From Fidelibacterota bacterium (GTDB lineage: Bacteria; Fidelibacterota; UBA8477), in contig JAIPJQ010000006.1 of NCBI GenBank assembly GCA_021734065.1, positions 1 to 48,846 of the forward strand: 48,846 nucleotides of DNA, in the 5' to 3' direction. Of this stretch, positions 13,483 to 48,328 are shown one piece after another. The translations under genes were made by a program, and so were the position numbers. Numbering within the stretch: position 1 is the first letter of the stretch; every line of letters starts with the position of its first letter. The notes under the pieces were generated by a model that was given only the letters and a program-made list of their open reading frames with translations, searched no databases and was not told the origin of the DNA.

Positions 13483-13493
13483 GGAGTGCTTAC

Positions 13494-14849: not shown

Positions 14850-14853
14850 GTTA

Positions 14854-19700: not shown

Positions 19701-19861
19701 CGGGATTAATTGGCCGATTGTCACGCGCAATTGGGAAAACCAGTCAAAAGGTGGAGATTTTTAATAATGCCGCTCTGCCCTTTGTCATCTCAATTCCATC
19801 CGATAAAAACGCCCTCTCGGAGTCCCGACAATTTTTAGAAGCCATGGAACCTGCGGGGTAA
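16724..19861 (+). CDS. mfd: Transcription-repair coupling factor Mfd
   Basis: Mfd removes RNA polymerase stalled at DNA lesions and recruits UvrA. This 1045-residue copy (family usually about 1100-1180) has UvrB-like N-terminal domains, a CarD-like RNA-polymerase-interaction domain (about 370-440, with Gly-Val-Gly-Met-Tyr-Arg-Gly), and an SF2 translocase with Walker A Gly-Asp-Val-Gly-Phe-Gly-Lys-Thr (about 523-530), a DEEH box (near 624) and [10 protein letters not shown]. A TRCF domain lies near 910-1010, with [10 protein letters not shown]. The ATG at 16724 lies within a parS site (Met-Phe-His-Val-Lys), overlapping mnmG by 23 nt, so the two are translationally linked. Confidence 0.96.
16725..16740. 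other. parS site 2 (ParB-binding centromere sequence)
   Basis: TGTTTCACGTGAAACT matches 15 of 16 parS positions, with the same perfect 14-bp core as site 1 and 1869 bp away from it. It is read in two frames at once: as the end of mnmG and the start of mfd. Confidence 0.85.
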
Positions 19862-19872
19862 ATGGGCTTTCA

Positions 19873-19900
19873 TTGTCTATATTAATTGCTATGCTATACC
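19873..19900 (+). promoter_or_regulatory. Candidate promoter of the parvulin gene cluster
   Basis: TTGTCT (19873-19878) and TATACC (19895-19900) with a 16-bp spacer; TG precedes the -10 by one base, as in extended -10 promoters. It lies 41 bp before the first parvulin-family ATG. Confidence 0.35.
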
Positions 19901-19940
19901 CGCTGATCAAGATGCACGAAAAAAGAAGAGGTTTAAGATT

Positions 19941-21653
19941 ATGATGAAAAGACTAACGGTGCTCACAATTTTCATGAGTGCTTTGGTTCTGACACATTGT
20001 TCCAAGTCATCCGATGATAATGTAATTGCCGCGCTGGATGATGCTGAGGTCACCGCTGACGATTTGTTTGAACGCTATCCCCAGGCTCGCCTGGCTCAGG
20101 CAAGTGATGAAGAGATCAAAAACGCGGTGGACGATGTGGTGCGCCGGGCGCTCTTCGTGAAAGACGCTATCGCCATGGGATATAAAGATTCCACGGGTAC
20201 CAATGCGCAAATCCAGAATGTGGAAGATCAGCGGTTGTTTCAATATGTTTACGGAAAAGACATTCTGGACTCGGTGATCAATGAAGCCCAGCTTCGCGAA
20301 ATGTATGATAAGGCACGCTATGAAGTTCACGCCCGGCATATTCTGATACAACACCGGGAAGTTCCCAATGCTGCGGCCTCCCGCAGTAAAGAAGAAGCCC
20401 TGGCGCTGTGTGGACATGTCCTCCAGCAGCTCAAAGAGGGTGCCGCCTTTGAAGAGCTGGCCAACAAATACACCGAGGATCCTTCGGGAAAAAACACCGG
20501 CGGAGACTTGGGCTGGTTCGGCTGGGGAAAAATGGTGGGTCCCTTCCAGGAGGCGGCATTCAAGCTGTCGGCGGGGGACGTCTCAGATGTTGTGGAAACC
20601 CAGTTCGGATATCACATCATTAAGGTTGAAGGCCGTCGGGAAACGGATGTGAAGCCATTTAATGAGGAGAAAGACAACCTGCGGCGCATGGCTGCCCGGG
20701 ATAACGCCAGAGAGCTGCAGCAGCTGGCGCAAGCGTTCATTTTCAACATCAAGGCAGACAACAATTTTCAGATCATTAATAAAAATGTCGATGCCCTGTA
20801 TCGGGTCATTAATGCTTCAAAATACAAAATCGGTCCTCTTGATCATGTTTTGAAAAATGTGAATTTCACCGCCCCCCTCTTTACCATGGGCGGAGAGAGC
20901 TATGACAGTCAGTGGATTATTGATGAAGTAAACAAGCTGGATGTCAACTCAAAACCCACCGTGAACAACATCAATGACTTTAAAACACTGCTGGAAAATA
21001 TGGTGGTTCACGCCCTCATCATTGAGTATGGACATGAGCGTGGCTACACCAAGGATCCGGAATTCAGCAAGGCTATCACCGATATCCAGAACAATATCAT
21101 TTATAACAACTATGTACGGGATCAGATCAACGCCAACCTGAACCCAACCGAAGATGAACTGAAGGAATATTACGATAACCACAAAAATACCGATTACATG
21201 CAAAAAGAGATGGTGCGGGTTCGGGAGGTACTGGTGAAAGACCAGGCGAAGGCTGACTCTCTCTACAAAATTATCCGGGATGGTGCAGACATTGGTTTAA
21301 TGGCCCGCCGTCATACGGAGCGAAAATATGCTAAGGATCGGGGGGGTGAACTGGCGCCTTTCCCGCCGGGACGCTATGGTGAAATGGGTCAGCGCGCCTT
21401 TGAAATGTCTGCGGGTGAAATCTCCGAACCCATTAAGACCAACACGGGATATTCAATCATTAAGGTTCTGGAAAAAATCGAAGCCGGTCCCCAGGAATTT
21501 GACCGTGTAAAAAACCGCGTGAAAAATGACATTAATCAGGAAATGCGCAAAAAACGCACGGAAGAGCGTTTCAATCAGTTAGCAGAAAAATATGGCCTTC
21601 ATATCAATTATGATGCTGCCTATAACGCTTACCGCGACAAGAACAAAAACTAA
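19941..21653 (+). CDS. Lipoprotein peptidyl-prolyl isomerase with two parvulin domains
   Basis: A 570-residue PpiD/SurA-like foldase. The signal peptide ends in Leu-Thr-His-Cys (Cys at about 21), so it is lipid-anchored. An N-terminal SurA-like helical region (about 30-125) precedes a canonical rotamase domain (about 130-235) with Ala-Arg-His-Ile-Leu, Gly-Gly-Asp-Leu-Gly-Trp-Phe and Phe-Gly-Tyr-His-Ile-Ile-Lys. A second, more divergent rotamase domain (about 420-525) has Val-Arg-Glu-Val-Leu, Gly-Gly-Glu-Leu and Thr-Gly-Tyr-Ser-Ile-Ile-Lys. It probably chaperones outer-membrane protein precursors in the periplasm. First of three related genes, 20 bp apart and then overlapping by one base, ending at a common terminator. 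Confidence 0.88.
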   Translation: MMKRLTVLTIFMSALVLTHCSKSSDDNVIAALDDAEVTADDLFERYPQARLAQASDEEIKNAVDDVVRRALFVKDAIAMGYKDSTGTNAQIQNVEDQRLFQYVYGKDILDSVINEAQLREMYDKARYEVHARHILIQHREVPNAAASRSKEEALALCGHVLQQLKEGAAFEELANKYTEDPSGKNTGGDLGWFGWGKMVGPFQEAAFKLSAGDVSDVVETQFGYHIIKVEGRRETDVKPFNEEKDNLRRMAARDNARELQQLAQAFIFNIKADNNFQIINKNVDALYRVINASKYKIGPLDHVLKNVNFTAPLFTMGGESYDSQWIIDEVNKLDVNSKPTVNNINDFKTLLENMVVHALIIEYGHERGYTKDPEFSKAITDIQNNIIYNNYVRDQINANLNPTEDELKEYYDNHKNTDYMQKEMVRVREVLVKDQAKADSLYKIIRDGADIGLMARRHTERKYAKDRGGELAPFPPGRYGEMGQRAFEMSAGEISEPIKTNTGYSIIKVLEKIEAGPQEFDRVKNRVKNDINQEMRKKRTEERFNQLAEKYGLHINYDAAYNAYRDKNKN

Positions 21654-21672
21654 CCTGGGTTTCGGGGCATTC

Positions 21673-22491
21673 ATGCGTGAATCATTCTGGCTGCGCAGCC
21701 TTTTGACTGGTCTGATTCTGCTTTCAATTTCTACCTGTAACAGTGTCAATAATGACGATGTAGTTGCCCAGGTGAATCATGAATTTCTGACCCTGGAGAA
21801 ATTGCACGCCATGGTGCCACATTTTGATCAACTGGACAGCCTGCAGAAAGCGCATTTTGTGGAAAGCTGGATCCAGGAAACCCTGCTGAAGCAAGAGGCG
21901 GAAAAATATCTCCTGGAGCGGGATCCCCAGTTCAAACAGCAGATGGATACCTATTATCGGCGCTTGCTGGCGGATAAAATGATGCAAAAATTCATGCGTG
22001 AATCCATCCAGATTTCTGACCAGGAAATCCGCGACTATTACGAAAAAAACAAAGACAACTTCCGGCGTGCCGAGGACGAAATTTTTACCTTGCATGTTTT
22101 ATTACCCAGTCGGGATGAAGCACGCGAGCTGCGCAACGTTCTCCTGGCCAATGATCTGGATAAAAAGGCTGAGTTTTTACGCAAATACCAGAACGAAACC
22201 GGATTGGTTAAACTCAGCGATTTGATTCCGGACCTGCGAAACCGCCTCTCCCGCAACCGGGAACCCGGCGTATATGGTCCCTACTGGTCTGATTTCGGCT
22301 ATCATGTGATGAATGTGACCCAGTGGTATGCGAAGGATGATCTGCGTCCCCTGGAAGAGGTCTGGGACGAAATTGCCGGCCGTCTGTCTATCGATCAGCA
22401 GTTGGATTATCGACTGGCCATTACCGACAGCCTGCGCGCTCAGGCCAATGTGAGTTTTCACCCCTCCCTATTCACCCAAACGAGACCATAA
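21673..22491 (+). CDS. SurA-like lipoprotein with a degenerate parvulin domain
   Basis: A 272-residue protein. The start at 21673 yields a signal peptide ending in Ser-Thr-Cys (lipobox). An in-frame start inside the preceding gene would put 27 unrelated residues in front and is rejected. A SurA N-like helical domain follows (Ala-Gln-Val-Asn, Leu-Asp-Gln-Leu-Asp-Ser, a Glu-Ser-Trp-Ile-Gln-Glu-Thr-Leu-Leu core, and Tyr-Tyr-Glu-Lys-Asn-Lys-Asp-Asn-Phe). Then comes a reduced rotamase-like segment (about 135-235) that keeps Gly-Pro-Tyr-Trp-Ser-Asp-Phe-Gly-Tyr-His-Val but lacks the Gly-Gly-Asp-Leu-Gly loop. Probably a chaperone without isomerase activity (inference). Confidence 0.75.
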   Translation: MRESFWLRSLLTGLILLSISTCNSVNNDDVVAQVNHEFLTLEKLHAMVPHFDQLDSLQKAHFVESWIQETLLKQEAEKYLLERDPQFKQQMDTYYRRLLADKMMQKFMRESIQISDQEIRDYYEKNKDNFRRAEDEIFTLHVLLPSRDEARELRNVLLANDLDKKAEFLRKYQNETGLVKLSDLIPDLRNRLSRNREPGVYGPYWSDFGYHVMNVTQWYAKDDLRPLEEVWDEIAGRLSIDQQLDYRLAITDSLRAQANVSFHPSLFTQTRP

Positions 22492-23792
22492 TGCAAAAAC
22501 TATATCGTAATCGCATAAAGTCGTTCCTTCTTTTTCCCTTCTTACTGATGTCTCTGCTCAGCGCCCAGTCGCTGGTGGATGGCCTTGCCGCCATCGTGGG
22601 GCAAAAAGCCATTCTCTACTCGGAAGTTGAGCAAATGGCCCAGCTCATCAGCGCTCAGCAGAAAATTGACCCCTACCAGAACCCACAAGCCTATAACCAA
22701 CTGCGATACAACGCGTTGGACGAGCTGATCAACCAGCAAGTCTTGCTGGAATATGCCCGCCAGGAAACCATCGAGGTGCGCGACCGGGATGTGGAAGCGC
22801 AGGTAGAGCAGCTTATGGGCAATCTGGAGCAACAGTACGGTGGGCTGGATCAGGTGGAGCAAACGTTTGGTATCAGTCCGCGAAAAATCCGCCGTTATTA
22901 TCAGGATCAGATTCGCGGCAATCAGATCATTGAAGCGGTGAAGCGTGAACTATTCAGCAATATCAAAGTGAGTCGCCGGGAGGTGGAGGCGTTTTTCCAA
23001 ACCAACCGGGACAGCTTCCCGGAGATCAATCCAGCGGTGGATTTTTCGATCATCTCCCTGCCCATGGAAGCCGGGACCCGTGCACGGGAAGCAGCCCGTG
23101 ACACCCTGCTCTTTATCCGCGATCGCATTTTATCCGGAGATGCCTCTTTTGCCAATATGGCCCAGCGTTACTCCCAGGATCCGGGAAGCGCGGCCAATGG
23201 CGGAAACATTGGTTTTACCTCCCGGGGCACCTTTGTTAAGCCTTTTGAAACCGCCGCTTACACATTGGAACCCGGCGAGATGAGCGATGTGGTGGAAACC
23301 CAGTTTGGTCTACACATTATCAAACTGGAGGAGCGCCGTGGCGAAAAGGTGAATGTCTCCCACATTCTCATCAAACCCGCAGCTTCTCAGGAAGATGTGC
23401 AGACCCTCAGGGACAGTCTGTCCAGCATCCGGGAGGATATTTTGTCCGGTAAACTCACCTTTGCCGAGGCTGCCAAACAATACCTCACCGATCCCGATTT
23501 GAAAGCCCGCAACGGACGGGTGGGAAAGACAGACATCACCACCATGCCGGAGGGTATGCAACAAATTCTGAATGAGCTGCCTGCCAGAGAGATATCCCAG
23601 CCTTTCCCTGCCCTGGATCAGATCAATCTCGTGCTTGTTCATGAACGCTTTTCCGGCGGTAAGCTGACGCTGAAGAATAACTGGTTTGAACTGGAGTCCA
23701 TGACCCTGCAACAAAAACAGATGGAGCGATTGGAAAAATGGATCCAGGAGCAACGCGAGAAGATGTATATCAATGTAAAAATGATATTATGA
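22491..23792 (+). CDS. surA: Periplasmic SurA-type peptidyl-prolyl isomerase
   Basis: A 433-residue periplasmic chaperone with a cleavable signal peptide (to about residue 25, Leu-Leu-Ser-Ala-Gln). The SurA N-domain opens with Asp-Gly-Leu-Ala-Ala-Ile-Val-Gly (about 30-37). A complete parvulin domain (about 180-285) holds Gly-Gly-Asn-Ile-Gly-Phe and Phe-Gly-Leu-His-Ile-Ile-Lys. A second (about 295-385) holds Val-Ser-His-Ile-Leu-Ile-Lys but is weaker at its end. Its length and domain order match SurA, which escorts outer-membrane beta-barrels. The ATG overlaps the preceding stop (TAATG), so it is translationally coupled. Transcription ends at the strong terminator 36 bp downstream. Confidence 0.88.
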   Translation: MQKLYRNRIKSFLLFPFLLMSLLSAQSLVDGLAAIVGQKAILYSEVEQMAQLISAQQKIDPYQNPQAYNQLRYNALDELINQQVLLEYARQETIEVRDRDVEAQVEQLMGNLEQQYGGLDQVEQTFGISPRKIRRYYQDQIRGNQIIEAVKRELFSNIKVSRREVEAFFQTNRDSFPEINPAVDFSIISLPMEAGTRAREAARDTLLFIRDRILSGDASFANMAQRYSQDPGSAANGGNIGFTSRGTFVKPFETAAYTLEPGEMSDVVETQFGLHIIKLEERRGEKVNVSHILIKPAASQEDVQTLRDSLSSIREDILSGKLTFAEAAKQYLTDPDLKARNGRVGKTDITTMPEGMQQILNELPAREISQPFPALDQINLVLVHERFSGGKLTLKNNWFELESMTLQQKQMERLEKWIQEQREKMYINVKMIL

Positions 23793-23827
23793 TTTCGTCT
23801 CCGGGATAAAGAATCTCCTGTTTTTAC

Positions 23828-23864
23828 CACCCCGATCCCTCAAACGGTCGGGGTGTTTTTTTTT
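23828..23864 (+). terminator. Strong terminator after surA
   Basis: CACCCCGA and TCGGGGTG form a perfect 8-bp stem around a 12-nt loop, followed by nine T. It ends the parvulin operon just before the origin region, so little transcription would enter oriC from this side. Confidence 0.92.
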
Positions 23865-24374
23865 ATCTGAAAAACACCTGTCCACGCACTTATCAACAGG
23901 CTTAATTTCCATCCTTCGAACGTATACTTTTGTTTTTGTTCAACCGTCGGATTTGCCTGAACGGGGTTATGAACATATTCACATAAATTTTTATTCACTT
24001 CCATCTAAAAAGCTGCGTCCCAGAGAATTTTGTGGATAAGAAATTTGTTTCTGACAATTTACGTTCAGGCTATTCGGCGCGATGGGACTTTATCCACGTG
24101 AGCAGGGTTCGCTTTTCATTTTTCAAAAGGGGTTGAAGGTCAAAAAGTTACCGTCGAAAGTGGAAATCTTATCCACATTGTGGACAAACTACGTACTACT
24201 ACGACGTAAGAATATTTCTCTATACAGTAATCATTAAAACAGGGTAAAACACCCGAATGGCGCCGTGTTCAAACTCATTGAATAGCTTTGAATTCAGGCC
24301 GGCTTATGTTATCTTATTCTGCTTATGAGAAAAATATTTAAACCCTTGTTAATTGTGCATTTGGAGAGTTAAGC
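23865..24374. other. oriC: Candidate oriC: DnaA-box cluster upstream of dnaN
   Basis: With the preceding terminator this is the only gene-free stretch over 300 bp. DnaA boxes, exact or one base off TTATNCACA: 23890-23898 (TTATCAACA), 23967-23975 (TTATGAACA), 23991-23999 (TTATTCACT), 24031-24039 (minus strand, exact TTATCCACA), 24090-24098 (TTATCCACG), 24169-24177 (exact) and 24179-24187 (minus strand, TTGTCCACA). The last two face each other as an inverted pair. They are followed by TAC-triplet repeats (24193-24201) and then an AT-rich tract (24209-24240) that could unwind. Flanking genes (dnaN, recF, gyrB/gyrA; dnaA nearby) and two parS sites support an origin. Box clustering is visible; origin function is inference. 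Confidence 0.8.
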
Positions 24375-25490
24375 ATGCAATTTACCCTTGAGAAATCTGC
24401 CCTCCAGACAGGCGTACAAAAAATTATCAAAGTGAGCCCTACCCGCTCCACCATGCCAATCCTGAATCATATCCTGTTTACCATTGAAAATGGTCATCTG
24501 TTTTTACGGACGTCGGATATTGAAATCACCTATGTGCTGGAGGTGGATTTACTCAATGGTGAAGATGGTTCAGTGGCCATTCCTGCCCGTCTGCTGCAGG
24601 AGATCACCAACGAGCTGCCCGAGACGGAATTGAAATTCAGCGTGGACGAGAAACAACGCATCAACCTGGAAACCACGGTGGGTACCTACAAAATACAGGG
24701 TCGCCCAGGGGATGAATTTCCGGAAACACCTCAACTGGCTGATGCGTCCAAATTCAAACTCCCGGCTGATCTGCTGGAACGTATGATTGATAAAACACTG
24801 TTTGCCGTGGGCAGGGACGAATTGAAGCCCGCATTGATGGGGGTGTTGTTCGAAATCAATAAATCGGATATCCGGGCTGTGGCTACCGATGGTCACCGTC
24901 TGGTCCGATTTACCAATAAAGCGTTCACCAATTCCGGTGATCCGGCCAAGGTTATTATCCCCACCAAATTCCTCCAACTGCTGCAAAATATGCTGCCGGT
25001 GGAAGATCAGGTGGAATTCAGTATTGCAGCCGATCATGTGAAGGTGGAAACCAAGGGTGCCCAAGTGTACACCCGCGTGATTGATGAGCATTATCCCGAC
25101 TATACGGCGGTCATTCCCTCCGGAAACGACAAAAGTTTTGTCGCCAGTTCCAATGAGATGATCAATACCGCCCGTCGGGTCTCGATTTTTTCAAATCGGA
25201 CTACCCATCAGTTGGCATTCAAGCTGCATCCGGGATATCTGGAGGTTTATACCGAAGACCCGGAAAACAGTACTTCGGCCAAGGAAGAAGTCTTGGTAGA
25301 ATATGATGGCGAGGAAATGACCATCGGATACAATTCGCTCTATGTGCGGGATCTGCTGCGGAATGTTGAGACAGATAAGGTGGTCTTTAAACTGAGCAGC
25401 GCTGTTGGCCCGGGCATTATCCTGCCGGAAAAACAGCGTGAGAAAGAAGACCTGCTCATGTTACTCATGCCCATCAGGTTGAATAGCTAA
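24375..25490 (+). CDS. dnaN: DNA polymerase III beta sliding clamp
   Basis: A 371-residue processivity clamp that forms a dimeric ring around DNA and tethers Pol III and repair partners. It starts Met-Gln-Phe-Thr-Leu-Glu-Lys. It contains Ile-Leu-Asn-His-Ile-Leu-Phe, Gly-Arg-Pro-Gly-Asp-Glu-Phe-Pro, Ala-Thr-Asp-Gly-His-Arg-Leu-Val, Tyr-Pro-Asp-Tyr and the C-terminal Leu-Leu-Met-Leu-Leu-Met-Pro-Ile-Arg that lines the partner-binding pocket. GGAGAG precedes the ATG. It is the first gene right of the DnaA-box cluster. Confidence 0.97.
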   Translation: MQFTLEKSALQTGVQKIIKVSPTRSTMPILNHILFTIENGHLFLRTSDIEITYVLEVDLLNGEDGSVAIPARLLQEITNELPETELKFSVDEKQRINLETTVGTYKIQGRPGDEFPETPQLADASKFKLPADLLERMIDKTLFAVGRDELKPALMGVLFEINKSDIRAVATDGHRLVRFTNKAFTNSGDPAKVIIPTKFLQLLQNMLPVEDQVEFSIAADHVKVETKGAQVYTRVIDEHYPDYTAVIPSGNDKSFVASSNEMINTARRVSIFSNRTTHQLAFKLHPGYLEVYTEDPENSTSAKEEVLVEYDGEEMTIGYNSLYVRDLLRNVETDKVVFKLSSAVGPGIILPEKQREKEDLLMLLMPIRLNS

Positions 25491-25574
25491 TGACAGCAGG
25501 TAAGCGATTAAGCGTTCTAAATATTATTGTGTTGTGAGGTTATTAACGGAGGTTGGTTCACACCGGCCCGGTGC

Positions 25575-26685
25575 ATGCTGATTAAGTCCCTTTCCATGAA
25601 AAATTTTCGGGTATATGAACACGCAGCACTTCGCTTCGGAGAGCAAACCAATATTCTGTTTGGTGAAAATGGCGCCGGAAAGACCACCGTTTTGGAAGCT
25701 ATCCATTGTCTGGCGTATACCCGCAGCTTTAAAACCCATTTGGACAGTGAACTCATCCGGTACGAAACAACGGAAGCGCGCATCGGAGGGAATTTTCGAG
25801 GGGACAAAAAGAACGACCAGCGGGTGGAGATGAGCCTTTCGGAGAAACAGCCGAAACAGATCAAGGTGAATGGGGCGCTCCTCACCAGTCAGGCCGGATT
25901 GATTGGCAGAATACCGCTGGTATGTCTGGCGCCCGAAGATAGTGTGGTAACCGTCGGGGCTCCGGCTGATCGCCGCCGGTTTTTTGACAAGCTGTTCTCC
26001 CAGGTTGACACCGTCTATCTCACCGCACTGCAGCAGTATAACCGGGTGTTGAAACAGCGAAATGCGCATCTGAATGATTTTGCGGTGAATGGCACGCCGG
26101 TAAATTCGGAATTACTTCTGGCACTGGACACGCAGGTCGTTAAACAAGGAGCGATCATTCAGCAGAAGCGCGCGGAGTATGTACAGAAATTCAAAAGCTT
26201 TGTGTATCAGATTTATCTGGAATTGGAGAAAGATAAAACCTTTAAAGCTGCCTATATACCAGCCGTCAAGGTGAAACCCGGTGAATCGGTGGAACAGGCT
26301 TTTCAACGAGAATTGGAAGCCAGCCGCCCGGCTGATATGCGTCGGGGAACCACCACTACCGGGATCCAGCGCGACTTGTTCCTGTTTTACCTGAATCATC
26401 AGGATATCCGGCGTTACGGCTCCATGGGCGAACATAAACTGGCGCTGGTTGCGTTGAAATTCGCCGAAGGTCGTTTTTTAGAGGATTATTTGACCGAGAA
26501 ACCAATCTACCTGCTAGATGATCTTTTTGCAGAATTGGACATTAAGCGCAGCGTGCAGATTATCCAGTCGTTGCCGGAAGGGTATCAGGTTTTCATTACC
26601 TCCACCGACCTGGCCGATTTGAGGCGGCACGGTTTGGAAATCGAATCGGAAAATTTGACTGTTTTTGATACAGGAAAGCTTCGTG

Positions 26686-26699
<14 letters not shown>
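25575..26699 (+). CDS. recF: DNA replication and repair protein RecF
   Basis: A 374-residue SMC-like ATPase that, with RecO and RecR, loads RecA at gaps. Walker A is Gly-Glu-Asn-Gly-Ala-Gly-Lys-Thr-Thr (about 31-39). The characteristic Tyr-Thr-Arg-Ser-Phe-Lys segment follows. Walker B is Tyr-Leu-Leu-Asp-Asp-Leu-Phe-Ala-Glu-Leu-Asp (about 312-322). The start at 25575 (Met-Leu-Ile-Lys-Ser-Leu) gives the family N-terminus; an in-frame TTG 48 bp upstream adds non-conserved residues. GGAGG sits 24 nt ahead of this ATG, unusually far, and a 13-bp palindrome lies between them. It ends inside the next gene (14-nt overlap). Confidence 0.94.
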
Positions 26700-28913
<2,214 letters not shown>

Positions 28914-28997
28914 TCAGCGAGTGATTGTGGGATTGGGTAAAACAGAACAAACCAGTTTGAAGCAGACATTTATTACTAGATAAGGACGAGGCGAACT

Positions 28998-31538
28998 TTG
29001 GAAATTCAAAGACAGAATATCATCCGCGCCAATATTGAAGACGAAATGAAGAAATCATACATGGACTACTCCATGTCGGTCATTGTTTCGCGCGCGCTTC
29101 CCGATGTTCGGGACGGACTCAAGCCGGTGCACCGGCGCATTTTATATGGCATGAGCGAGCTGGGAGTTCAATACAACCGGCCGTATCGGAAATCAGCCCG
29201 TATCGTTGGTGATGTGTTGGGTAAATATCATCCCCACGGCGATTCGGCGGTTTACGATACCATGGTGCGCATGACCCAGGAATTTTCACTGCGATATCCA
29301 CTGGTGGACGGACAGGGAAACTTTGGCTCCATCGATGGTGATAACGCGGCGGCCATGCGATACACGGAAGCCCGTATGAAGCGCATTGCCGGCGAGATCA
29401 TGCGTGATCTGGATAAGAACACTGTCGATTTCAGGCCCAATTTTGACGACAGTTTGCAGGAGCCGGTGGTAATGCCCACTGTTCTGCCCAATCTGCTGCT
29501 CAATGGCGCCAGTGGTATCGCCGTGGGTATGGCCACCAACATTCCTTCCCACAATCTGGGTGAGGTGGTGGATGCAATATCAGCCCAGATCGACAACCCC
29601 GAAATAGTTATTCCTGAGTTAATGCAGCATATCTCCGGTCCCGACTTCCCCACCGGTGCCATTATTTACGGCGCCAGCGGTATTAAAGACGCCTATGAGA
29701 CCGGTCGTGGAAAGGTCACCGTACGAGCCCGGGTCAATGTGGAAGAGCAGAAAAGCGGCCGGGAACACCTGATTGTTACTGAAATCCCCTACCAGGTGAA
29801 TAAAGCCACGCTTATTGAAAAAATCGCCGATCTGGTCCACGACAAAAAGGTGGAGGGCATTTCCGACCTGCGCGACGAGTCGGATAAAGACGGGATCCGG
29901 GTGGTGATTGAATTGAAGCGGGACGCGATGCCGGAAGTGGTGCTGAATCAGCTCTACAAGCACACGCAGTTGCAGGACACCTTCGGCGTGATTATGCTGG
30001 CGTTGGTGGACGGTCTGCCAAAAGTGCTGACGCTTAAAGAGGTGATCACTCATTTCATCAAATTCCGCCACGATGTGGTGGTGCGCCGGACAGAGTACGA
30101 TTTAAACGAAGCGGAAAAACGTGCCCACATTTTAGAGGGCCTGAAAATCGCGCTGGACAATCTGGACGCGGTGATCAAAACCATCCGGGAATCAAAAAAC
30201 CCGGTTATTGCCAAAGAACAGCTCATGAGCAAATTCGAGCTCAGTGATGTCCAGTCGCAGGCGATTTTGGATATGCGTCTCCAGCGGTTGACCGGGCTTG
30301 AACGGCAAAAAATTGTTGACGAGTACACGGAAACCCTGAAACTCATTGCCAAGCTGAAAGAGATTTTAGCCAATCGCGGTCTCCGAATGGAGATCATCAA
30401 GGAAGAGTTGCAGGAATTGAAAGAACGGTATGGCGATGAGCGCCGGACGGAAATTGTCCATGACGCCCGCGATTTCACCGTGGAGGATATGATTGCCGAA
30501 GAGGAGATGGTTATTACCATTACCCACAACGGTTTTATCAAGCGTTATCCCGTGAGTGGTTACCGTCGCCAGAATCGCGGTGGCCGGGGATCATCCGGAG
30601 CCAAGGCTCGCGACGATGATTTTGTGGAACATTTGTTCGTGGCATCCACCCATGATTACATCCTCTTTTTCACTGACGCCGGTAAATGTTATTGGATAAA
30701 GGTACACCAGCTGCCACAAGCCGGGAAGGCTACCCGCGGGCGGGCGATTGTGAACCTGCTGGGCATTCAGTCAGGTGAAAAAATCATGGCTTACATTACC
30801 GTGCGCGATTTCACCGGCGAGAATTACATCATCATGGCCACGGCCAACGGTCTGGTGAAAAAAACCTTTCTTGAAGCCTACAGCCGCCCGCAACGGGGTG
30901 GCATCTATGCCATTGATATCCGCGAGGGCGACTACCTCATTGATGCCAAGCTCACCAACGGCGAGAATGATATTCTGCTGGGAACCCACAACGGCAAATC
31001 AATCCGCTTTAACGAAAACCGGGTACGTCCCACCGGCCGAAAAACCATGGGCGTCGCCGGCATCCGGCTCAGCGGAAAGGATGATCGTGTGGTGGGAATG
31101 ATCGTGGTCCGTCGGGAGGGAACCGTCCTGGCTGTTACAGAAAGCGGATTTGGTAAACGAACCGAAATCATCAATTACCGGGTCCAGAATCGCGGCGGAA
31201 AAGGCATTATCACCGTGAAAGTTACCCCCAAGGTTGGGAAAATGCTGGCCTTGCTGGAAGTGGTGGATCAGGATGACCTGATGATTATCACCGCCAAGGG
31301 TGTTTTGATCCGCCTGCCGATTGGAAAAATTCGCAGTATCGGACGGAACACGCAGGGCGTGCGACTCATCAGGCTGGATGAGAAGGACACCATTTCAGCT
31401 GTTACCCGGGTTCAGGAAGAGACCGAAACGAAAAACGGTGATTTAGCTCAAATCCCGGACGCAGACGGAAATGGCGATGGCAATGGCGAAGATGAGGATG
31501 ATTCAGGGACCGAGCAGATCAGCGCGTTCGATGAATAG
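28998..31538 (+). CDS. gyrA: DNA gyrase subunit A
   Basis: This 846-residue subunit cuts and rejoins DNA. Catalytic Tyr122 lies in Arg-Tyr-Thr-Glu-Ala-Arg, as in E. coli numbering. The C-terminal beta-pinwheel holds a GyrA-box variant, Gln-Asn-Arg-Gly-Gly-Lys-Gly-Ile, needed for DNA wrapping. The last 40 residues are acidic (Asp-Gly-Asn-Gly-Asp-Gly repeats), as in many GyrA tails. The start is TTG at 28998 with AGGACGAGG just upstream. At the quinolone pocket, residues around 81-90 read [10 protein letters not shown], that is, Ser and Asp at the usual sensitive-type positions. Confidence 0.97.
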
Positions 31539-38689: not shown

Positions 38690-40054
38690 ATGCAACGGAG
38701 ACACACCGCGTTGCTCTTGATTTTTGGTTTGTTTATGGCCGTATGCCTGCAAGCGCAGGCGGACGATGTCCAACGGGGCAAGGGGAGCTGCATGACATGC
38801 CACAAAGGCACCTCCCCGGGATTGTACCGACAGTGGCTGGGATCCAAACACGCCACCATGGGCGTCACCTGTTACGATTGTCATAAGGCGGAAAAAACCG
38901 ACCCGGACGCCTTCAAGCACGGTGATTATTACATTGCCACGCTGGTCACCCCGAAAGACTGTTCCCAGTGTCATCCCACTGAATTCAAGCAAGTTGATCA
39001 ATCCTATCATGCCACCGCGGGTGAAATTCTGGAGTCAGCGGACGCCTATCTGGCCAATGTGGTTGGTGGCAGCCCGGCGGCAATTGCCGGCTGTGAAGCC
39101 TGCCACGGGAATCGTGTAAAAATTGACCCAAAATCTCCCAATATGCTGGCGCGTGAAAGTTGGCCCAATTCCGGTGTGGGACGCATCAATCCGGATGGCT
39201 CCAAGGGCTCCTGTAATGCCTGTCACTCCCGCCACTCCTTCTCCAAAGCCCAGGCCCGCCGACCCGAAACCTGCGGAAAATGTCACCTGGGTCCGGATCA
39301 TCCCCAGAAAGAGATTTACGCAGAATCCAAACATGGGATCGCATTTTTCACCAACCAGGACAAGATGAACCTTGAATCCGACCGCTGGGTGGTAGGTGAA
39401 GATTATTATGAAGCACCCACCTGCGTGACCTGTCACATGGGTGCGACGAAACAGCAGAAATCCACCCACGATGTGGGTCTGCGCTTGTCCTGGACGCTGC
39501 GACCGGCGATTTCCGTCCATAAAGAGGACTGGAAAGAGAAACGGGACAACATGAAGGATGTCTGCCAGGCTTGTCACGGGAAGGATTTCGTGGAGGGACA
39601 TTACTACCAGTTTGATGGTGTGGTAAATCTGTATAATGTGAAATTTGCGGCGCCGGCCACAAAGATCATGGAAATCCTGAATAAGAACGGTGCCCTGGAG
39701 CGCAAAGCCGAGTTTGCCAACGATATTGAGTGGATTTACTGGGAGCTCTGGCATCACGAAGGTCGCCGGGCGCGTCATGGTGCAGCCATGATGGGACCGG
39801 ACTACACCTGGTGGGAAGGTATTTATGAAGTGGCGAAACACTTCTACTTCGAACTATTGCCGGCAGCCAGGGAATACGATGACCCGGAAGTGAATCAATT
39901 CATCGATAATATGCTCACAAATGATCCCATGCATAATTGGATGAACGCGAGTTCTGACGAATTGAAAGCCAGGATTAAGTCCGGAGAAATGCAGAAAGTT
40001 TATCAAGACCTATTCAAGGAGACGCGGGCGACCAATGCGCCAAACAATTACTAA
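38690..40054 (+). CDS. Octahaem cytochrome c, hydroxylamine oxidoreductase (HAO) family
   Basis: A 454-residue periplasmic protein with signal peptide (to about 24, Gln-Ala-Gln-Ala). Eight CxxCH haem sites start at Cys34, 61, 91, 135, 175, 195, 245 and 292. HAO-family blocks are visible: Glu-Ser-Lys-His-Gly-Ile (212-217), Tyr-Tyr-Glu-Ala-Pro-Thr-Cys (239-245), Thr-His-Asp-Val-Gly (259-263) and His-Glu-Gly-Arg-Arg-Ala-Arg-His-Gly (356-364). Relatives oxidise hydroxylamine or hydrazine, or run in reverse to reduce nitrite. Which applies depends on the tyrosine cross-link to the active haem, which I cannot assign here. AAGGAGA and GGAGGG precede the ATG. It overlaps the NapC-type gene by 20 nt, a pairing known from epsilon-proteobacterial HAO. 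Confidence 0.82.
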   Translation: MQRRHTALLLIFGLFMAVCLQAQADDVQRGKGSCMTCHKGTSPGLYRQWLGSKHATMGVTCYDCHKAEKTDPDAFKHGDYYIATLVTPKDCSQCHPTEFKQVDQSYHATAGEILESADAYLANVVGGSPAAIAGCEACHGNRVKIDPKSPNMLARESWPNSGVGRINPDGSKGSCNACHSRHSFSKAQARRPETCGKCHLGPDHPQKEIYAESKHGIAFFTNQDKMNLESDRWVVGEDYYEAPTCVTCHMGATKQQKSTHDVGLRLSWTLRPAISVHKEDWKEKRDNMKDVCQACHGKDFVEGHYYQFDGVVNLYNVKFAAPATKIMEILNKNGALERKAEFANDIEWIYWELWHHEGRRARHGAAMMGPDYTWWEGIYEVAKHFYFELLPAAREYDDPEVNQFIDNMLTNDPMHNWMNASSDELKARIKSGEMQKVYQDLFKETRATNAPNNY

Positions 40055-41525
40055 TTTCCTACGCGGGCTCGCGTCAAACTGGATTTCTAAGGCCGGGGTC
40101 GTCCTGGTTACCACATCCTTTGTCCTGTTCAGTATTTTTCAGGTGTTTACGCTACTCGGGCTTTTAACCAACGCCTATATCGGCCTGATCACCTACCTGG
40201 GATTCCCGTCCATTTTCGTCATTGGACTGCTGTTGATTCCCTTTGGGTGGTGGAAATATGTGCGGGAAACGGGTCGAACCACACGGGATCTGTTAAACGA
40301 ACGCTTCCCCGATGATCTCTTACAGCCCAAAGCCTTCGGCGCGAAACTGATCCGCACGCTGGCAATTCTGACGCTGGTAAATATCGTGATCCTGGGAGCG
40401 GCCAGCACGCGCATGCTCCATTTCATGGACCAGGCGGAGTTTTGCGGTACCGCCTGCCACAGCGTAATGGGACCCGAATGGGCGACCTATCAGGATTCGC
40501 CCCACGCCCATGTAAAATGTGTGGATTGTCATGTGGGTGAGGGTGTTGGTGCCCTGATTGACTCCAAAATCAATGGCACCTGGCAGATGATTTCGGTGAC
40601 ATTCGATCTCTATGAGCGCCCCATTCCGGCGCCGGTTCACCAGTTGCGTCCTGCCCGGGAAACCTGCGAGAAATGTCACTGGCCGTCCAAATTTCACGGA
40701 ACCCGGCTGAAAACCATCACCCGCTATCAGCGCGATAAAAACAACACGCCCAAATACACCACCCTGAACCTGAAGGTGGGGTCGGGCGAGAACGGTACGG
40801 CCAGCGGGATTCATTGGCACATTGCCTCACAAAATGAAGTCCGCTACGGTGCCGTTGACGACAAGCGGGAAAAAATCCTCTGGGTTGAAGCGCGTCAACC
40901 GGACGGCAGTTTCAAGCGCTACCAAAATCGTCGCTACGACGCCGGTGCGCCGGTTCACGAGGAGCGGGTCCTGGACTGCATCGATTGTCACAATCGGGCA
41001 ACCCATATTTATGAACTGCCGGACAAAGCTATTGACCGGCGGTTCAGTGAGGGGTTATTGCCCCGGAATTTGCCCTTCCTCAAACGGGAAGCCCTGGCTG
41101 CGCTTACAAAAAATTACGCGGACAAGACCAGTGGCTTGGATGGCATTGAGCGGCATCTAACCGGATTTTATAGAAAATATGATTCGCAGTTGGCGGGAAT
41201 GCGTTTGGATGAAATTGACACCGCGATTGCCGTGGTGCAGGAAATCTACCGTCGCAATATCCATCCCCGCATGAATGTGAATTGGGGCGCTTATCCCAAT
41301 CACATCGGACATGAAACCGATCTGGGGTGTTTTCGGTGTCACAACATGGATATGGTAGACGAGGCGGGTAAAAATGTGGTGAATGATTGCACCACCTGTC
41401 ACTCCATTTTGGCGTATGAAAAAGACGAGCCCTTCGCGTACCTCTTCCCGGTGACGGAGAATGAACCAGAGGGTGATATGCATGAATATCTGCGGCAGGA
41501 GTTTTTGCAGTCTTTTGACGATTAG
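40035..41525 (+). CDS. NapC/NirT-type membrane multihaem cytochrome (quinol-linked)
   Basis: A 496-residue protein with three hydrophobic helices (about 21-45, 55-75 and 104-122), then a haem domain. Haem motifs: an unusual CX3CH (Cys137-Cys141-His142, Phe-Cys-Gly-Thr-Ala-Cys-His), then CxxCH at 162, 211, 315, 432 and 452, giving six sites against the four of classical NapC/NrfH. NapC-family proteins pass electrons between the quinol pool and periplasmic cytochromes. It overlaps the octahaem gene and shares its terminator, so the two probably form one complex or relay. Alternative: an outer-surface electron-transfer branch as in ImcH-like proteins. Confidence 0.82.
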   Translation: MRQTITNFLRGLASNWISKAGVVLVTTSFVLFSIFQVFTLLGLLTNAYIGLITYLGFPSIFVIGLLLIPFGWWKYVRETGRTTRDLLNERFPDDLLQPKAFGAKLIRTLAILTLVNIVILGAASTRMLHFMDQAEFCGTACHSVMGPEWATYQDSPHAHVKCVDCHVGEGVGALIDSKINGTWQMISVTFDLYERPIPAPVHQLRPARETCEKCHWPSKFHGTRLKTITRYQRDKNNTPKYTTLNLKVGSGENGTASGIHWHIASQNEVRYGAVDDKREKILWVEARQPDGSFKRYQNRRYDAGAPVHEERVLDCIDCHNRATHIYELPDKAIDRRFSEGLLPRNLPFLKREALAALTKNYADKTSGLDGIERHLTGFYRKYDSQLAGMRLDEIDTAIAVVQEIYRRNIHPRMNVNWGAYPNHIGHETDLGCFRCHNMDMVDEAGKNVVNDCTTCHSILAYEKDEPFAYLFPVTENEPEGDMHEYLRQEFLQSFDD

Positions 41526-44762: not shown

Positions 44763-44813
44763 ATGGCGGAGCGATATTCCGCCGACACAGCGTCATGCGT
44801 TGCTAACAAATAG
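44763..44813 (+). CDS. Possible 16-residue leader peptide upstream of the anti-sigma-like ATPase
   Basis: ATG with GAGGGGG 3 nt upstream, reading Met-Ala-Glu-Arg-Tyr-Ser-Ala-Asp-Thr-Ala-Ser-Cys-Val-Ala-Asn-Lys and ending TAG, whose G is the first base of the next gene's GTG. Its first codons form a perfect hairpin, GGCGGA/TCCGCC (44765-44783). The next gene has no Shine-Dalgarno of its own, so this may drive it by coupling. Too short to be sure. Confidence 0.35.
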   Translation: MAERYSADTASCVANK

Positions 44814-45247
44814 TGAAAACGGTGAAAATCAAACCTGCCAATAAAGCCAAGACTTGCTTGATTCCCCTTTCTGACCGGTTTGAAGCGTTGGTTCGTGCGG
44901 AATATCAAAAGTTTACGGCCGATATCCCCATGAAACAGGATGATCGTCTGGCGGCGAGCATGGCATTGAATGAATTGGCGCTGAATGCCGCCGAGCACAG
45001 CCGGACCAGCGACAATCAGATCATCATAAAGTTCCGGTTGGCCGGAGGTCGATTGAACATACAGGTGAAGGATAATGGACAGGGACTTATGGTTTCGGAA
45101 ACAAAGGCCAAATATTACCGTGGACACGGTTTTAACATAGTCAAAGCACTCTGTGACAGGATGGATATTCATCCGTCTGGCACGGGGTTAACCGTTTCAA
45201 TAACGAAGAATCTATGGAGGCCTCAAATTGGTGGATTTTCCATATAG
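44813..45247 (+). CDS. RsbW/SpoIIAB-like GHKL ATPase (anti-sigma/serine kinase family)
   Basis: A 144-residue GHKL ATPase. N box with Glu54 and Asn58 (Asn-Glu-Leu-Ala-Leu-Asn-Ala-Ala-Glu-His-Ser), G1 box Asp87-Asn-Gly-Gln-Gly and G2 box Gly-His-Gly-Phe-Asn-Ile-Val (104-110). Family members phosphorylate a STAS partner and sequester a sigma factor or other target. Here the STAS gene starts 20 nt before its stop. GTG start at 44813. No sigma factor gene is adjacent. Confidence 0.85.
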   Translation: MKTVKIKPANKAKTCLIPLSDRFEALVRAEYQKFTADIPMKQDDRLAASMALNELALNAAEHSRTSDNQIIIKFRLAGGRLNIQVKDNGQGLMVSETKAKYYRGHGFNIVKALCDRMDIHPSGTGLTVSITKNLWRPQIGGFSI

Positions 45248-45569
45248 CCTGGTGAATCAAGACCGGGCGGTTGTATTGAGGATCGGCGGATATATTGATC
45301 GCCGGGGTATCAAGCAATTACGTGAGACATTGCTGGAGGAATACGCGAACGGCAATAAGCCCATTATTGTCAATTTCTCGAATGGAGAGCCAAACAGTCT
45401 GCTGGTGGCGATCTTTTTTGAAATTTTGGATATCAACAACAAGGATCCCCGGAAGATCGCTTTTTCGAATCTGAACGAACCGATTCACCGCGCGCTGGAG
45501 GCGACCGGAATTCTCTCCTTGTGTGCCGTGTTTTCGGATGAAAATGAAGCGCTGGAGCGGTTGCAATGA
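45228..45569 (+). CDS. STAS-domain protein (anti-sigma-factor antagonist type) with altered phosphosite
   Basis: A 113-residue STAS domain (Val-Val-Leu-Arg-Ile-Gly-Gly-Tyr-Ile-Asp, then Lys-Pro-Ile-Ile-Val-Asn-Phe). In SpoIIAA/RsbV proteins the loop reads Asp-Ser-Ser-Gly-Leu. Here it is Glu-Pro-Asn-Ser-Leu-Leu-Val, so one Ser (Ser57) remains beside Asn56 and the Gly is lost. TTG start at 45228, with GGAGG 7 nt upstream. Overlaps the ATPase upstream and the GAF-AAA+ gene downstream (ATGA), so it is a partner-switch element. Confidence 0.78.
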   Translation: MVDFPYSLVNQDRAVVLRIGGYIDRRGIKQLRETLLEEYANGNKPIIVNFSNGEPNSLLVAIFFEILDINNKDPRKIAFSNLNEPIHRALEATGILSLCAVFSDENEALERLQ

Positions 45570-46996
45570 GTTCTGCTGACCCACGTCTGTTTTTACTGTA
45601 TCGTAGTTTGGAGGAGCTGGCGGACCTGGAGTTCACCGTAGATTCCTGCCCCGAGGCATTCGAAACCATTCAACAGGTCTTCATGGGTGTGTTGGGTGTG
45701 AGCAGAGGTGCCTTCCTTGTGAAAGAATTTGAGAAAGAGATGTGCGAAGTCGCCTACAAACGTGGCTTGAATCTGCCGTTGGGATTCAAGGTGCCGGTGA
45801 ACGGCCTGGGTGAAGAGATGGAGGAAACGCTGAAAACCATGGGTGTGGCTTTCATTCTGCCCATGTATCATCATAACAATTGTGTGGGCCTGGTCTTACT
45901 GGGTGAAAAAATGAATGGTGAGTCCTTCACCCTGGAAGATCGCAAGCTTGTACAGCCCATTGCCAACCTGGTGGGCATGGTGCTGACTAATTTTCTGAGT
46001 TATTACAGCAGTTTGTCGCAGCGGGATGAGTTACAAACCGAGAACAAGCATTTGAAAACGCTGGTGGAAACGCGCTTTAGTATTCGTGAGGTGGTGGGCG
46101 TCTCGGCGGCTTATCAGCGAACCATCCGGCAAGCCACGGTCTTCGCCCAGTCAAATCACGCCATTTTGTTGGTGGGGGATTACGGCACCGGGAAGGAATT
46201 TTTGGCGCGTCTCATTCACCACCAGGGTCCCCGTAGTGTTCATCCCATCTATATCCTGAATGCAGACACGGTTTCGAAAAATTTATGGTTGCGGCAGCAT
46301 CCAAAAGATTTATCTCCCGAAGCGCAGGAACACCTGACCCGTTTACGCGGTGGAACGGTGGTGATTTTGGGTATTGACGAGATACCCAGGGAGGATCAAC
46401 AGGCGTTAATGGCCTCACTGGGAAGCAATGATCTGTCCAGCATCCCGAAGCTATACAATTTCCGAATGATTCTGACCGCTCGCCGCGACCCGGACCAGCT
46501 TGTGGCAGGGGGACTCCTGATTCAGGAGTTGCGGGACCACCTGAAGGGACATGTTATTGAACTGGCACCCCTGTCGGAGCGACGGGAAGCCATTCCAATC
46601 CTGGCGCAAAAGATTTTGGAAACGCTGGCGGTTGAATACGGCCACCCGAACCTGAGTCTTTCCCCTACAGCGCTGCGCTATCTGACGGTGCGCGACTATG
46701 CAGAAAATGTCCGTGAATTGGAAAACCTGATAGAACGGGCGGTGGTAACGTTACCGCTGGATAAACATGAAATCACCCTGGCCAATCTCCAGCCCATGGC
46801 ATTCACGGGCGAGGATATTCATGCCCCGTTTCCCGCAACAATGAAAGACTTGGAGGAGCTCAAAGAGGAGATGGTGTTGCGGGCGCTGGCGCGCAATAAC
46901 TGGAAAAAAGTTGCCGCCGCCGAATCACTGGGCGTCTCCCGCCAAACCATTGATAATTTAACCGCGCGCTACAAAATCAGCCGACCGGATCATTGA
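45566..46996 (+). CDS. GAF-AAA+-Fis regulator resembling a degenerate NtrC-type activator
   Basis: A 476-residue protein: GAF-like sensor (about 30-155), AAA+ domain (about 175-410) and C-terminal Fis helix-turn-helix (Ala-Ala-Ala-Glu-Ser-Leu-Gly-Val-Ser-Arg-Gln-Thr-Ile). Walker A is Gly-Asp-Tyr-Gly-Thr-Gly-Lys-Glu (usual GESGTGKE). Walker B is modified (Val-Val-Ile-Leu-Gly-Ile-Asp-Glu-Ile). The GAFTGA loop that contacts sigma-54 is replaced by unrelated residues (Gln-His-Pro-Lys-Asp-Leu-Ser). Leu-Ser-Glu-Arg-Arg-Glu-Ala-Ile-Pro (sensor region) is kept. It therefore probably binds DNA but cannot remodel a sigma-54 holoenzyme. It is coupled by ATGA to the STAS gene, which suggests control by partner switching. 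Confidence 0.8.
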   Translation: MSSADPRLFLLYRSLEELADLEFTVDSCPEAFETIQQVFMGVLGVSRGAFLVKEFEKEMCEVAYKRGLNLPLGFKVPVNGLGEEMEETLKTMGVAFILPMYHHNNCVGLVLLGEKMNGESFTLEDRKLVQPIANLVGMVLTNFLSYYSSLSQRDELQTENKHLKTLVETRFSIREVVGVSAAYQRTIRQATVFAQSNHAILLVGDYGTGKEFLARLIHHQGPRSVHPIYILNADTVSKNLWLRQHPKDLSPEAQEHLTRLRGGTVVILGIDEIPREDQQALMASLGSNDLSSIPKLYNFRMILTARRDPDQLVAGGLLIQELRDHLKGHVIELAPLSERREAIPILAQKILETLAVEYGHPNLSLSPTALRYLTVRDYAENVRELENLIERAVVTLPLDKHEITLANLQPMAFTGEDIHAPFPATMKDLEELKEEMVLRALARNNWKKVAAAESLGVSRQTIDNLTARYKISRPDH

Positions 46997-47047: not shown

Positions 47048-48328
47048 ATGACCACAATTCCCTTAGCCTACGGTCACCATGAGATTAACCTGGAATTGCC
47101 GCGCCGGAATATCCGCCATGAAATCGGTGTGAAAAAGCCGTCCAAAATTATGGACGAGCAGCTTCTGAAAACCGCGCTCCGGTCCCTGAAGCCGGAAATG
47201 ATTCGGGATAGGCGGGTGATGATTTTATGTGACGACTATACCCGACCGACGCCGCGCCCGCGGGTGTTTAAATTTCTTTTCCCCAAGTTATCCACCGCGC
47301 GAAGTGTGGACTTTCTCATCACCACCGGCACACATCAGGCTCAGTCGCCAGGGAACGCCGCCATATTGGAGGCTGCCCGCAAGTTCGCCAGAGAATCAGC
47401 CCTGCCAGGATTTCGGACATTCGTGCATGATGTGAATTCCGCTGCATTTGTCACCGCCGGTACCACCAGCCGGGGAACCCAAATTCGGTTCAATCGCTTA
47501 CTGGAAAACCCCCGAGTTTTCATCGCCATTTCCGACATGAAACCCCACTATTTTTCCGGTTATTCCAATCCTATTAAACATTTTGTCCCCGGCTGTTGTG
47601 ATTACGCTGCCATTGAAAACAATCACAGCCTTGCCTTGGATGCACAGGCGTCCTTCGGTCGCCATCCTTTGCACAACAATCGGGATCGCAGGACGAATCC
47701 GGTGGCGGAAGATCAGTTGGAGGGGGCGCGACTCATCATTGGTTCCCGGCTGGTTTATGGCCTGCATCTCATTACCGTGGATGGAAATATTCATGACGCC
47801 CTTTTTGGAGAGACATTTCAAACCATGCCCACGATGTTTCAACGGATTGATGCGCATTTTGGTGCCCGGGTGCGACCGGCGGATATTGCCATTATCTCGC
47901 CAGGTGGTTACCCTGATGATGAGAGCCTGTACACCGCCCAGCGGGCACTGGAATTGACAGCAGCCGGTGTTAAAGCGGGAGGGTGGGTGCTGTTTCTGGC
48001 GGCCTGTGAAAATGGCATTGGAACAGAAAAAGCAATTCAAAATTTTTACCAGCCCCTCACCCGACCGCTGCCGGATGTTTTAAAAACGATAGAAGACAAG
48101 TATGTGCTTTTCGCTCATAAACCATACAAATTTGCGGTGATGATACAAAACCTCACAGAACTGGTCGTGAAAAGCGAATTACCCGACGAGGTGCTTACTG
48201 CGGCTCATCTTATACCTGCCAGGGATCCGCAGTCTGTATTGAACCAGAGGCTGTCCCAATCACCCGGAGCAACCATAAATGTGTTTCACCATGCCAACAA
48301 AATGGCTATTTATAAACAGGATGATTAA
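47048..48328 (+). CDS. LarA-family protein (nickel-pincer racemase/epimerase-like, DUF2088)
   Basis: A 426-residue protein of the lactate-racemase LarA superfamily. Signatures: Asp-Asp-Tyr-Thr-Arg-Pro-Thr-Pro (about 58-65), Thr-Gly-Thr-His-Gln (near 95), Lys-Pro-His-Tyr-Phe-Ser-Gly-Tyr, Lys-His-Phe-Val-Pro-Gly-Cys, and Asn-Asn-His-Ser (near 195). LarA uses a nickel-pincer nucleotide bound to a Lys and His. Corresponding Lys and His residues are present, but the GGxK motif of true LarA is replaced by Ser-Gly-Tyr-Ser-Asn-Pro-Ile-Lys. Many relatives act on other 2-hydroxyacids. No LarB/C/E maturation genes are in view, so substrate and cofactor are open. Confidence 0.82.
   Translation: MTTIPLAYGHHEINLELPRRNIRHEIGVKKPSKIMDEQLLKTALRSLKPEMIRDRRVMILCDDYTRPTPRPRVFKFLFPKLSTARSVDFLITTGTHQAQSPGNAAILEAARKFARESALPGFRTFVHDVNSAAFVTAGTTSRGTQIRFNRLLENPRVFIAISDMKPHYFSGYSNPIKHFVPGCCDYAAIENNHSLALDAQASFGRHPLHNNRDRRTNPVAEDQLEGARLIIGSRLVYGLHLITVDGNIHDALFGETFQTMPTMFQRIDAHFGARVRPADIAIISPGGYPDDESLYTAQRALELTAAGVKAGGWVLFLAACENGIGTEKAIQNFYQPLTRPLPDVLKTIEDKYVLFAHKPYKFAVMIQNLTELVVKSELPDEVLTAAHLIPARDPQSVLNQRLSQSPGATINVFHHANKMAIYKQDD

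Follow-up and report, generated by a model that had tools for sequence, protein, structure and literature searches.

Partner switching of the SpoIIAB/SpoIIAA and RsbW/RsbV type brings together an HATPase kinase encoded beside a STAS protein with a conserved serine and a SpoIIE-type PP2C phosphatase within the same system. A cassette that is alike in its kinase and STAS protein, and probably in its phosphatase, occupies positions 44,813 to 46,996 of the 48,846-nucleotide stretch of contig JAIPJQ010000006.1 analyzed here (hereafter the window), which comes from a Marinimicrobia genome (G000; 2.5 Mb, 170 contigs, 82% complete). Different from those systems, it contains no sigma factor gene, its third gene encodes a GAF-AAA+-Fis protein, and the phosphatase is probably encoded elsewhere in the genome. 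We consider it on balance probable that this is a partner-switching cassette with a DNA-binding protein as its output.

Degenerate NtrC proteins and partner switches that do not act on sigma factors are each already known. NtrC-type proteins without GAFTGA (NtrC of R. capsulatus and of Caulobacter, and VpsR) are reported to act at sigma-70 promoters (PMC10274813). The window protein resembles them as an AAA+-Fis protein without the sigma-54 loop, whereas it differs in that a GAF domain replaces the receiver domain and in that kinase and STAS genes overlap within its cassette. In Pseudomonas aeruginosa, the STAS protein HsbA works by way of a non-sigma-factor enzyme, the diguanylate cyclase HsbD; the output there is cyclic di-GMP (c-di-GMP) and FlgM, with no NtrC-like target (PMC5085249). 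In the Syp pathway of Vibrio fischeri, the STAS protein SypA is paired with the kinase/phosphatase SypE, and no sigma factor is known as the output (PMC8256260). Transcription of syp is under the control of SypG (PMC8256260; PMC3610818), which belongs to this pathway but is a response regulator and not a GAF-headed degenerate protein. For the STAS proteins of several non-canonical switches (SypA, RbaV, HmpV), the target is listed as unknown in the review PMC8256260. Stressosome output modules carry a constant N-terminal receiver, RsbU_N, before different outputs, with RsbT as messenger (PMC9237108); the window cassette would be alike in having a constant N-terminal receiver, but this would be a GAF domain combined with an RsbW/RsbV-type pair. 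A cassette of other Marinimicrobia, described below, is related in its kinase and phosphatase, in its STAS protein, and in the first of its GAF domains, but has a class III cyclase instead of an AAA+-Fis protein as output. Among the literature matches listed, with most subscription papers lying outside them, no title or abstract opening told of a partner switch directed at an NtrC-like protein or an adenylate cyclase, and our search found no paper joining Marinimicrobia with partner switching.

Three Overlapping Genes Conserved in Two Families

The first gene of the cassette (44813–45247; all three genes are on the + strand) encodes a predicted SpoIIAB/RsbW-like serine kinase of 144 amino acids, with a GTG start codon that is uncertain. 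It matches Pfam HATPase_c_2 over the cut-off (2.4e-11), its relatives by sequence in the PDB are SpoIIAB (4.5e-8) and RsbW (2.6e-7), and E54, N58, D87, and G89 are invariant in the four orthologues. The second gene (45228–45569; TTG start) overlaps the first by 20 nucleotides (nt) and encodes a SpoIIAA/RsbV-like, single-domain STAS protein of 113 amino acids (Pfam STAS 3e-6, over the cut-off), with weak PDB relatives by sequence (TM1442, 4e-4; SpoIIAA, 0.005 and 0.009). Ser57 of this protein is invariant in all 13 aligned STAS proteins of the present and the cyclase-type cassettes and is likely, judging from the alignment, the phosphorylation site. In TM1442 its counterpart is the DSAG serine, whereas relative to SpoIIAA it falls one residue past the first serine of DSSG, so that the register to SpoIIAA, and with it the exact site, is ambiguous.

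The third gene (45566–46996; ATG start) shares 4 nt (ATGA) with the end of the STAS gene and encodes a protein of 476 amino acids in which a GAF domain is followed by a coiled linker, a degenerate AAA+ domain, and a Fis-type helix-turn-helix (HTH). The GAF domain (residues 1–150; 45566–46015), the putative docking site for the switch, is below the Pfam cut-off (GAF_2, E 0.12), and its assignment comes from profile-profile comparison with cyclase GAF domains. The AAA+ core and lid cover approximately residues 176–415 (46091–46810) and the HTH residues 428–476 (46847–46993); Sigma54_activ_2 (5.7e-13), AAA_lid_14 (6e-15), and HTH_8 (4.7e-5) are all over the Pfam cut-off. ZraR and other NtrC-type proteins are its PDB relatives, with VpsR among the matches. 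An AlphaFold2 model built on a four-row alignment reached a mean predicted local distance difference test (pLDDT) of 70.5 and a predicted template modeling score (pTM) of 0.45, and NtrC-type proteins ranked first in a Foldseek search with it, which adds little at whole-model TM-scores of about 0.3. An earlier note on this DNA had described the three genes as overlapping one another and the module as lacking a sigma factor. The first statement is borne out by overlaps of 20 and 4 nt between the open reading frames, with which the Pfam assignments agree; the second holds for the cassette, and no sigma factor was found among 16 other window proteins in a scan that did not cover every window open reading frame.

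The AAA+ protein was matched at the threshold of 1e-30 in four of 60 relatives searched (G000 included): the source genome, two genomes of the same genus (G002 and G001; 74% and 61% identity), and G003, which belongs to another family of the same order (31%). All four, from two families of one order, keep the sequence HATPase-STAS-AAA+ with both overlaps, which measure 20 and 4 nt in the three genus members and 4 and 11 nt in G003. The gene-neighborhood check that the earlier note had suggested thus finds the adjacency in every genome with the AAA+ protein and not only in the source genome, and chance adjacency is rejected on this recurrence of order and overlaps. Cassettes of this kind are referred to here as window-type. 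Because synonymous sites are saturated or nearly so in most comparisons, identities were used in place of the ratio of nonsynonymous to synonymous substitution rates (dN/dS). Whole-protein identities to G002, G001, and G003 are 94, 70, and 37% for the STAS protein, 74, 61, and 31% for the AAA+ protein, and 76, 48, and 26% for the kinase, so that the STAS protein ranks first in conservation towards each of these genomes. A wider contig scan returned six loci, three of them partial matches (26–30%) in other phyla.

Loss of Sigma-54 Activator Motifs

The GAFTGA motif is absent from all four window-type orthologues, in agreement with the earlier note, which had described the AAA+ protein as lacking it. 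For comparison, 11 other NtrC-type proteins of the source genome were taken at E ≤ 0.001, with weaker-scoring NtrC-type genes outside the set; all 11 have the motif or nearly so (GAFTGA in nine, GSFTGA in one, GAFTNA in one). The L1 region is 7 residues shorter than in these proteins (11 in G003). That note had also reported altered Walker motifs, which is correct for Walker B, where the acids are lost in all four proteins (DE to LG in the genus, altered in G003), but not for Walker A, which has the usual NtrC-type form (GDYGTGKE) in the three genus members and is changed only in G003 (K to H). At the positions that we take, after PspF, to be those of the arginine fingers, none of the four proteins has arginine at the second, and only that of G001 has it at the first.

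The AAA+ core (residues 176–336) is the least conserved and fastest-evolving region of the protein, with an identity of 0.67 to G002 and 0.43 to G001, as against 0.79 and 0.73 for the GAF domain and 0.84 and 0.78 for the Fis HTH. The HTH shows dN/dS of 0.05 and 0.09 at synonymous sites near or at saturation. As read from its motifs, the AAA+-Fis protein is not a sigma-54 activator: the domains of the family and the Fis HTH are present, and GAFTGA and Walker B are lost.

Related Cassettes That Encode a Nucleotide Cyclase

Profile searches were extended to 245 Marinimicrobia genomes. With a GAF profile derived solely from the four window-type proteins, these four scored 5e-77 or better and the best match elsewhere 5e-11; ten further matches were obtained at 1e-6 (E 5e-11 to 7e-7), nine of them, with G023 as the exception, in proteins that align over approximately 620–665 residues with the cyclases of a related cassette. 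This cyclase-type cassette of other Marinimicrobia encodes a Reg_prop-PP2C phosphatase, an HATPase, a STAS protein, and a GAF-GAF-PAS-cyclase; the cyclases stand behind the HATPase and STAS genes, and often behind a Reg_prop-Y_Y_Y-SpoIIE phosphatase. Ten of ten cassette cyclases scanned match the Guanylate_cyc, GAF, and PAS models and are class III nucleotide cyclases. D499, K539, D543, N620, and R624, which we take to be class III catalytic positions, are invariant in these ten.

A STAS profile of 13 proteins, window type included, matched 28 of the 245 genomes at 1e-15, and the cassette-type STAS protein was found in 25 (21 others plus the four window-type genomes); the other three genomes have only another STAS family, and their examined flanks gave no kinase, GAF, or phosphatase match. 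Neighborhoods were read within 1500 bases of flank. An HATPase gene adjoins the cassette-type STAS gene in 25/25 genomes, and a related GAF protein follows it in 15 of 21 cyclase-type and in all four window-type genomes. Ten of these 15 following proteins are cyclases by Pfam and three (G154, G155, G106) by alignment, and two (G139, G143) are represented by the GAF part only. The window cassette has the gene order of the cyclase cassette, with a related HATPase, a STAS protein, and a GAF-headed protein, and its output is AAA+-Fis, not a cyclase.

Profile-profile comparison by hhalign relates the window GAF domain to one particular domain of the cyclases. Against the first GAF domain of eight of the ten cassette cyclases (L107 and L109 were omitted since the chosen start cut the N terminus) it gave 98.7% and a score of 101, versus 9% and 24 for the second GAF domain of the same eight, 14% and 30 for GAF-phosphatases, and 11% and 25 for a GAF domain taken from one of the ordinary NtrC-type proteins of the source genome. 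Comparison with 13 cassette kinases gave the kinase profile a score of 133; seven stand-alone HATPases gave 74 and two others 41. For the STAS profile the scores were 85 with the cassette and 55 and 41 with two control profiles, a weak control because these have only 2 and 4 rows. Residues translated as X because of an N in the DNA were removed before three of the flank profiles were built. In a tree of 26 kinases, the window and cassette kinases stand on one side of a branch with support of 100/99. Since the window kinase and GAF domain each resemble their counterpart in the cyclase cassette (for the latter, the first of the GAF domains) more than they do the controls, the window cassette appears to be the same switch with its output exchanged.

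Several variants were seen among the related cassettes. The cyclase-type cassettes of loci L108, L109, L110, L117, and L121 stand near genes that by eye resemble dnaN, recF, and partly gyrB, and are perhaps close to the replication origin. In L111–L113, phosphatase, HATPase, and STAS genes have no GAF protein behind them, and exbB/exbD/tonB-like genes come next, again by eye. A second cassette-type STAS gene directly follows the cyclase gene in G070 (L114, 3775–4128). Loci L118 (3105–8170) and L120 (2117–6775), from another family of the phylum, have the order PP2C, STAS, HATPase, and a second protein with a PP2C-like end; in the trees, neither their kinase nor their phosphatase joins the window group.

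Sigma Factors and an Orphan Phosphatase

Sigma70_r2 was searched in six genomes. The source genome has seven such proteins, five ECF-like (extracytoplasmic function), one RpoD-like, and one over the cut-off for FliA/WhiG, and no SigB/F/G model was over the cut-off in this 82%-complete genome, where the two large sigma factors reached 122 and 111 bits against a cut-off of 234. A sigma factor as target of the switch was set aside as unlikely on this classification of the seven proteins. RpoN is present in all four window-type genomes. With these sigma factors present and part of the genome missing, the separate sigma factor binding the ATPase that the earlier note had named as refuting its proposal may still exist.

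The phosphatase missing from the window cassette is probably an orphan Reg_prop-Y_Y_Y-SpoIIE protein, going by its Pfam architecture and distribution. It is one of two SpoIIE-type proteins encoded in the source genome and is located on the minus strand (G000:C29:11254-14160). Within the order, it is full-length in G000–G003 and in 0/19 other genomes, two of which have partial matches. When three candidates were scored per genome in the 245 genomes, the same four were the only full-length ones (5e-135 or better; identity 56–100% in the genus, 31% in G003); eleven further partial matches reached 1e-20, and six of these, the best five included, are phosphatases of cyclase-type cassettes. The phosphatase tree places its catalytic part together with eight cassette phosphatases and apart from five others, with support of 99/99; the phosphatases of L110 and L119 had been omitted as cut by contig ends. 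Four aspartates that we presume to be metal ligands are kept in this part. A hydropathy peak above 1.6 precedes the catalytic domain in the orphan phosphatases of G000 (just over) and G003, and none does so in the cassette phosphatase of L108 (three proteins compared). A long frame of 1357 amino acids at G000:C149:1608-2519 (L136) partially matches the propeller part of the orphan phosphatase.

Proposed Mechanism and Alternative Explanations

We suggest that a signal would reach the putatively membrane-bound propeller phosphatase, which would dephosphorylate a serine of the STAS protein, probably Ser57, and that the HATPase would re-phosphorylate it. The phosphorylation state of the STAS protein may then decide which partners this protein and the kinase bind. 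As third partner we propose the GAF domain at the N terminus of the AAA+-Fis protein. The latter would thereby be released or recruited, would bind DNA, and may act at promoters of the sigma-70-type polymerase without ATP-driven remodeling, like the NtrC proteins without GAFTGA mentioned above; the AAA+ fold would serve assembly only. Other Marinimicrobia would join the same switch to a GAF-GAF-PAS-cyclase, the output having been exchanged behind the common GAF domain. The GAF domain is the candidate docking site because it is the one domain common to both kinds of output protein. We lean slightly to the STAS protein, and not the kinase, as the one that touches it, because the STAS protein is the most conserved of the three as a whole protein. 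The more general proposal, that the GAF domain is the receiver of an RsbW/RsbV-type switch in Marinimicrobia with an exchangeable output, mostly a cyclase and here an ATPase-dead, sigma-54-independent NtrC-like protein, seems to us to have an even chance of being correct.

The earlier note had proposed that the switch controls the AAA+-Fis protein and not a sigma factor. Conservation of the cassette in two families down to 31% identity, the kinship of its GAF domain with that of the cassette cyclases, and the lack of a SigB/F/G-type sigma factor speak for this part of the proposal; the physical contact we infer, as we do all other contacts, the docking at the GAF domain, the direction of control, and the promoters. 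If the more general proposal is true, a partner switch would act directly on a transcription factor other than a sigma factor, and there would be a concrete candidate for the type of target in several STAS-only systems. With its GAF-headed output proteins, the cassette family supplies a type of target that can be tested, together with an apparent exchange of outputs, cyclase for DNA-binding protein, under one conserved switch. It would also explain the retention of an NtrC-like protein without the motifs for sigma-54 contact and hydrolysis, as one that answers to a protein-protein switch instead of relying on ATP-driven remodeling.

Several observations weigh against a switch with a GAF-headed output. 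Contact, kinase activity, DNA binding, and control of target genes are predictions, and the kinase of G001 has lost the glycine at the third residue of the DxGxG (G1) box. Five of the 21 cyclase-type genomes have no GAF protein within 1500 bases, and the contig of one further genome ends there. Several hhalign control profiles have only 2–4 rows, and the kinase, STAS, and phosphatase trees carry long-branch warnings. The STAS tree (25 proteins) does not decide between the STAS proteins of the cyclase cassettes and another STAS group as nearest relative of the window STAS protein; the link between window and cyclase cassettes rests on the kinase, the GAF domain, and the phosphatase. As to the latter, its gene adjoins the kinase gene in 16 of 21 cyclase-type genomes but in none of the four window-type ones, and the SpoIIE match of the orphan protein spans only positions 2–143 of 192. 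Its co-occurrence with the cassette is worth about two observations because the four genomes represent two lineages, and is further limited by incomplete genomes and by the three candidates scored in each.

A classical anti-sigma switch, in which the kinase would bind a sigma factor from another locus (FliA/WhiG, RpoD-like, or ECF) and the AAA+-Fis protein would be a separate regulator of the operon, would agree with SpoIIAB/RsbW and anti-sigma-factor antagonists as the closest solved relatives of the kinase and the STAS protein and with the seven sigma-70-family proteins of the source genome, one of them FliA/WhiG over the cut-off. No SigB/F/G-type protein is over the cut-off there, however, no sigma factor was recognized beside the cassette, and the gene adjoining the switch genes persists in two families, its GAF domain being common to the cyclases of the related cassettes; we regard this explanation as unlikely. 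Control might also run in the reverse direction, with the GAF-AAA+-Fis protein sensing a ligand and regulating transcription of the switch genes while the switch acts elsewhere. Binding of small molecules is frequent among GAF domains, autoregulation of the operon is common for regulators of this kind, and an inverted repeat, GGCGGA-N7-TCCGCC, stands upstream of the window cassette. Two exact six-base inverted repeats occur in the stretch before the window cassette, but none in the stretches upstream of the cassette in G001 and G002, and these repeats were dropped as regulatory sites. Since pure autoregulation would also leave the same GAF type on the related-cassette cyclases unexplained, we give reverse control little more than a small chance, and a slightly smaller one than the anti-sigma switch.

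Continued cooperation of the AAA+ protein with sigma-54 RNA polymerase was considered since RpoN occurs in 4/4 genomes, and Walker A is normal in the genus; we rejected it, as very improbable, on the absence of any GAFTGA-like motif, the lost Walker B acids, the lost Walker A in G003, and the missing arginine at the presumed second finger position. Gradual decay of the AAA+-Fis gene into a pseudogene could account for an AAA+ core that is the least conserved region, but the frames are full-length and stop-free in four genomes down to 31% identity, and the GAF domain and the HTH are well conserved, the latter with the low dN/dS values given above at synonymous sites near or at saturation; decay is hardly to be believed. 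A partner-switching cassette acting on its GAF-headed DNA-binding protein remains the explanation that we prefer.

Neighboring Genes

A LarA-like gene (Lar_N, LarA_C; window 47048–48328) directly follows the cassette in the window, G001, and G002 and is not beside the G003 cassette. In the genus, recO-like and rhomboid genes precede the cassette, and the neighbors are different in G003; no link is claimed. Elsewhere in the window, two adjoining genes at 38690–41525 encode multi-haem cytochromes (Multi-haem_cyto; NapC/NirT-like N terminus), and one stretch at 11683–31538 contains genes for YidC, MnmE, MnmG, an Mfd-like protein, two peptidyl-prolyl isomerases, GyrB, and GyrA.

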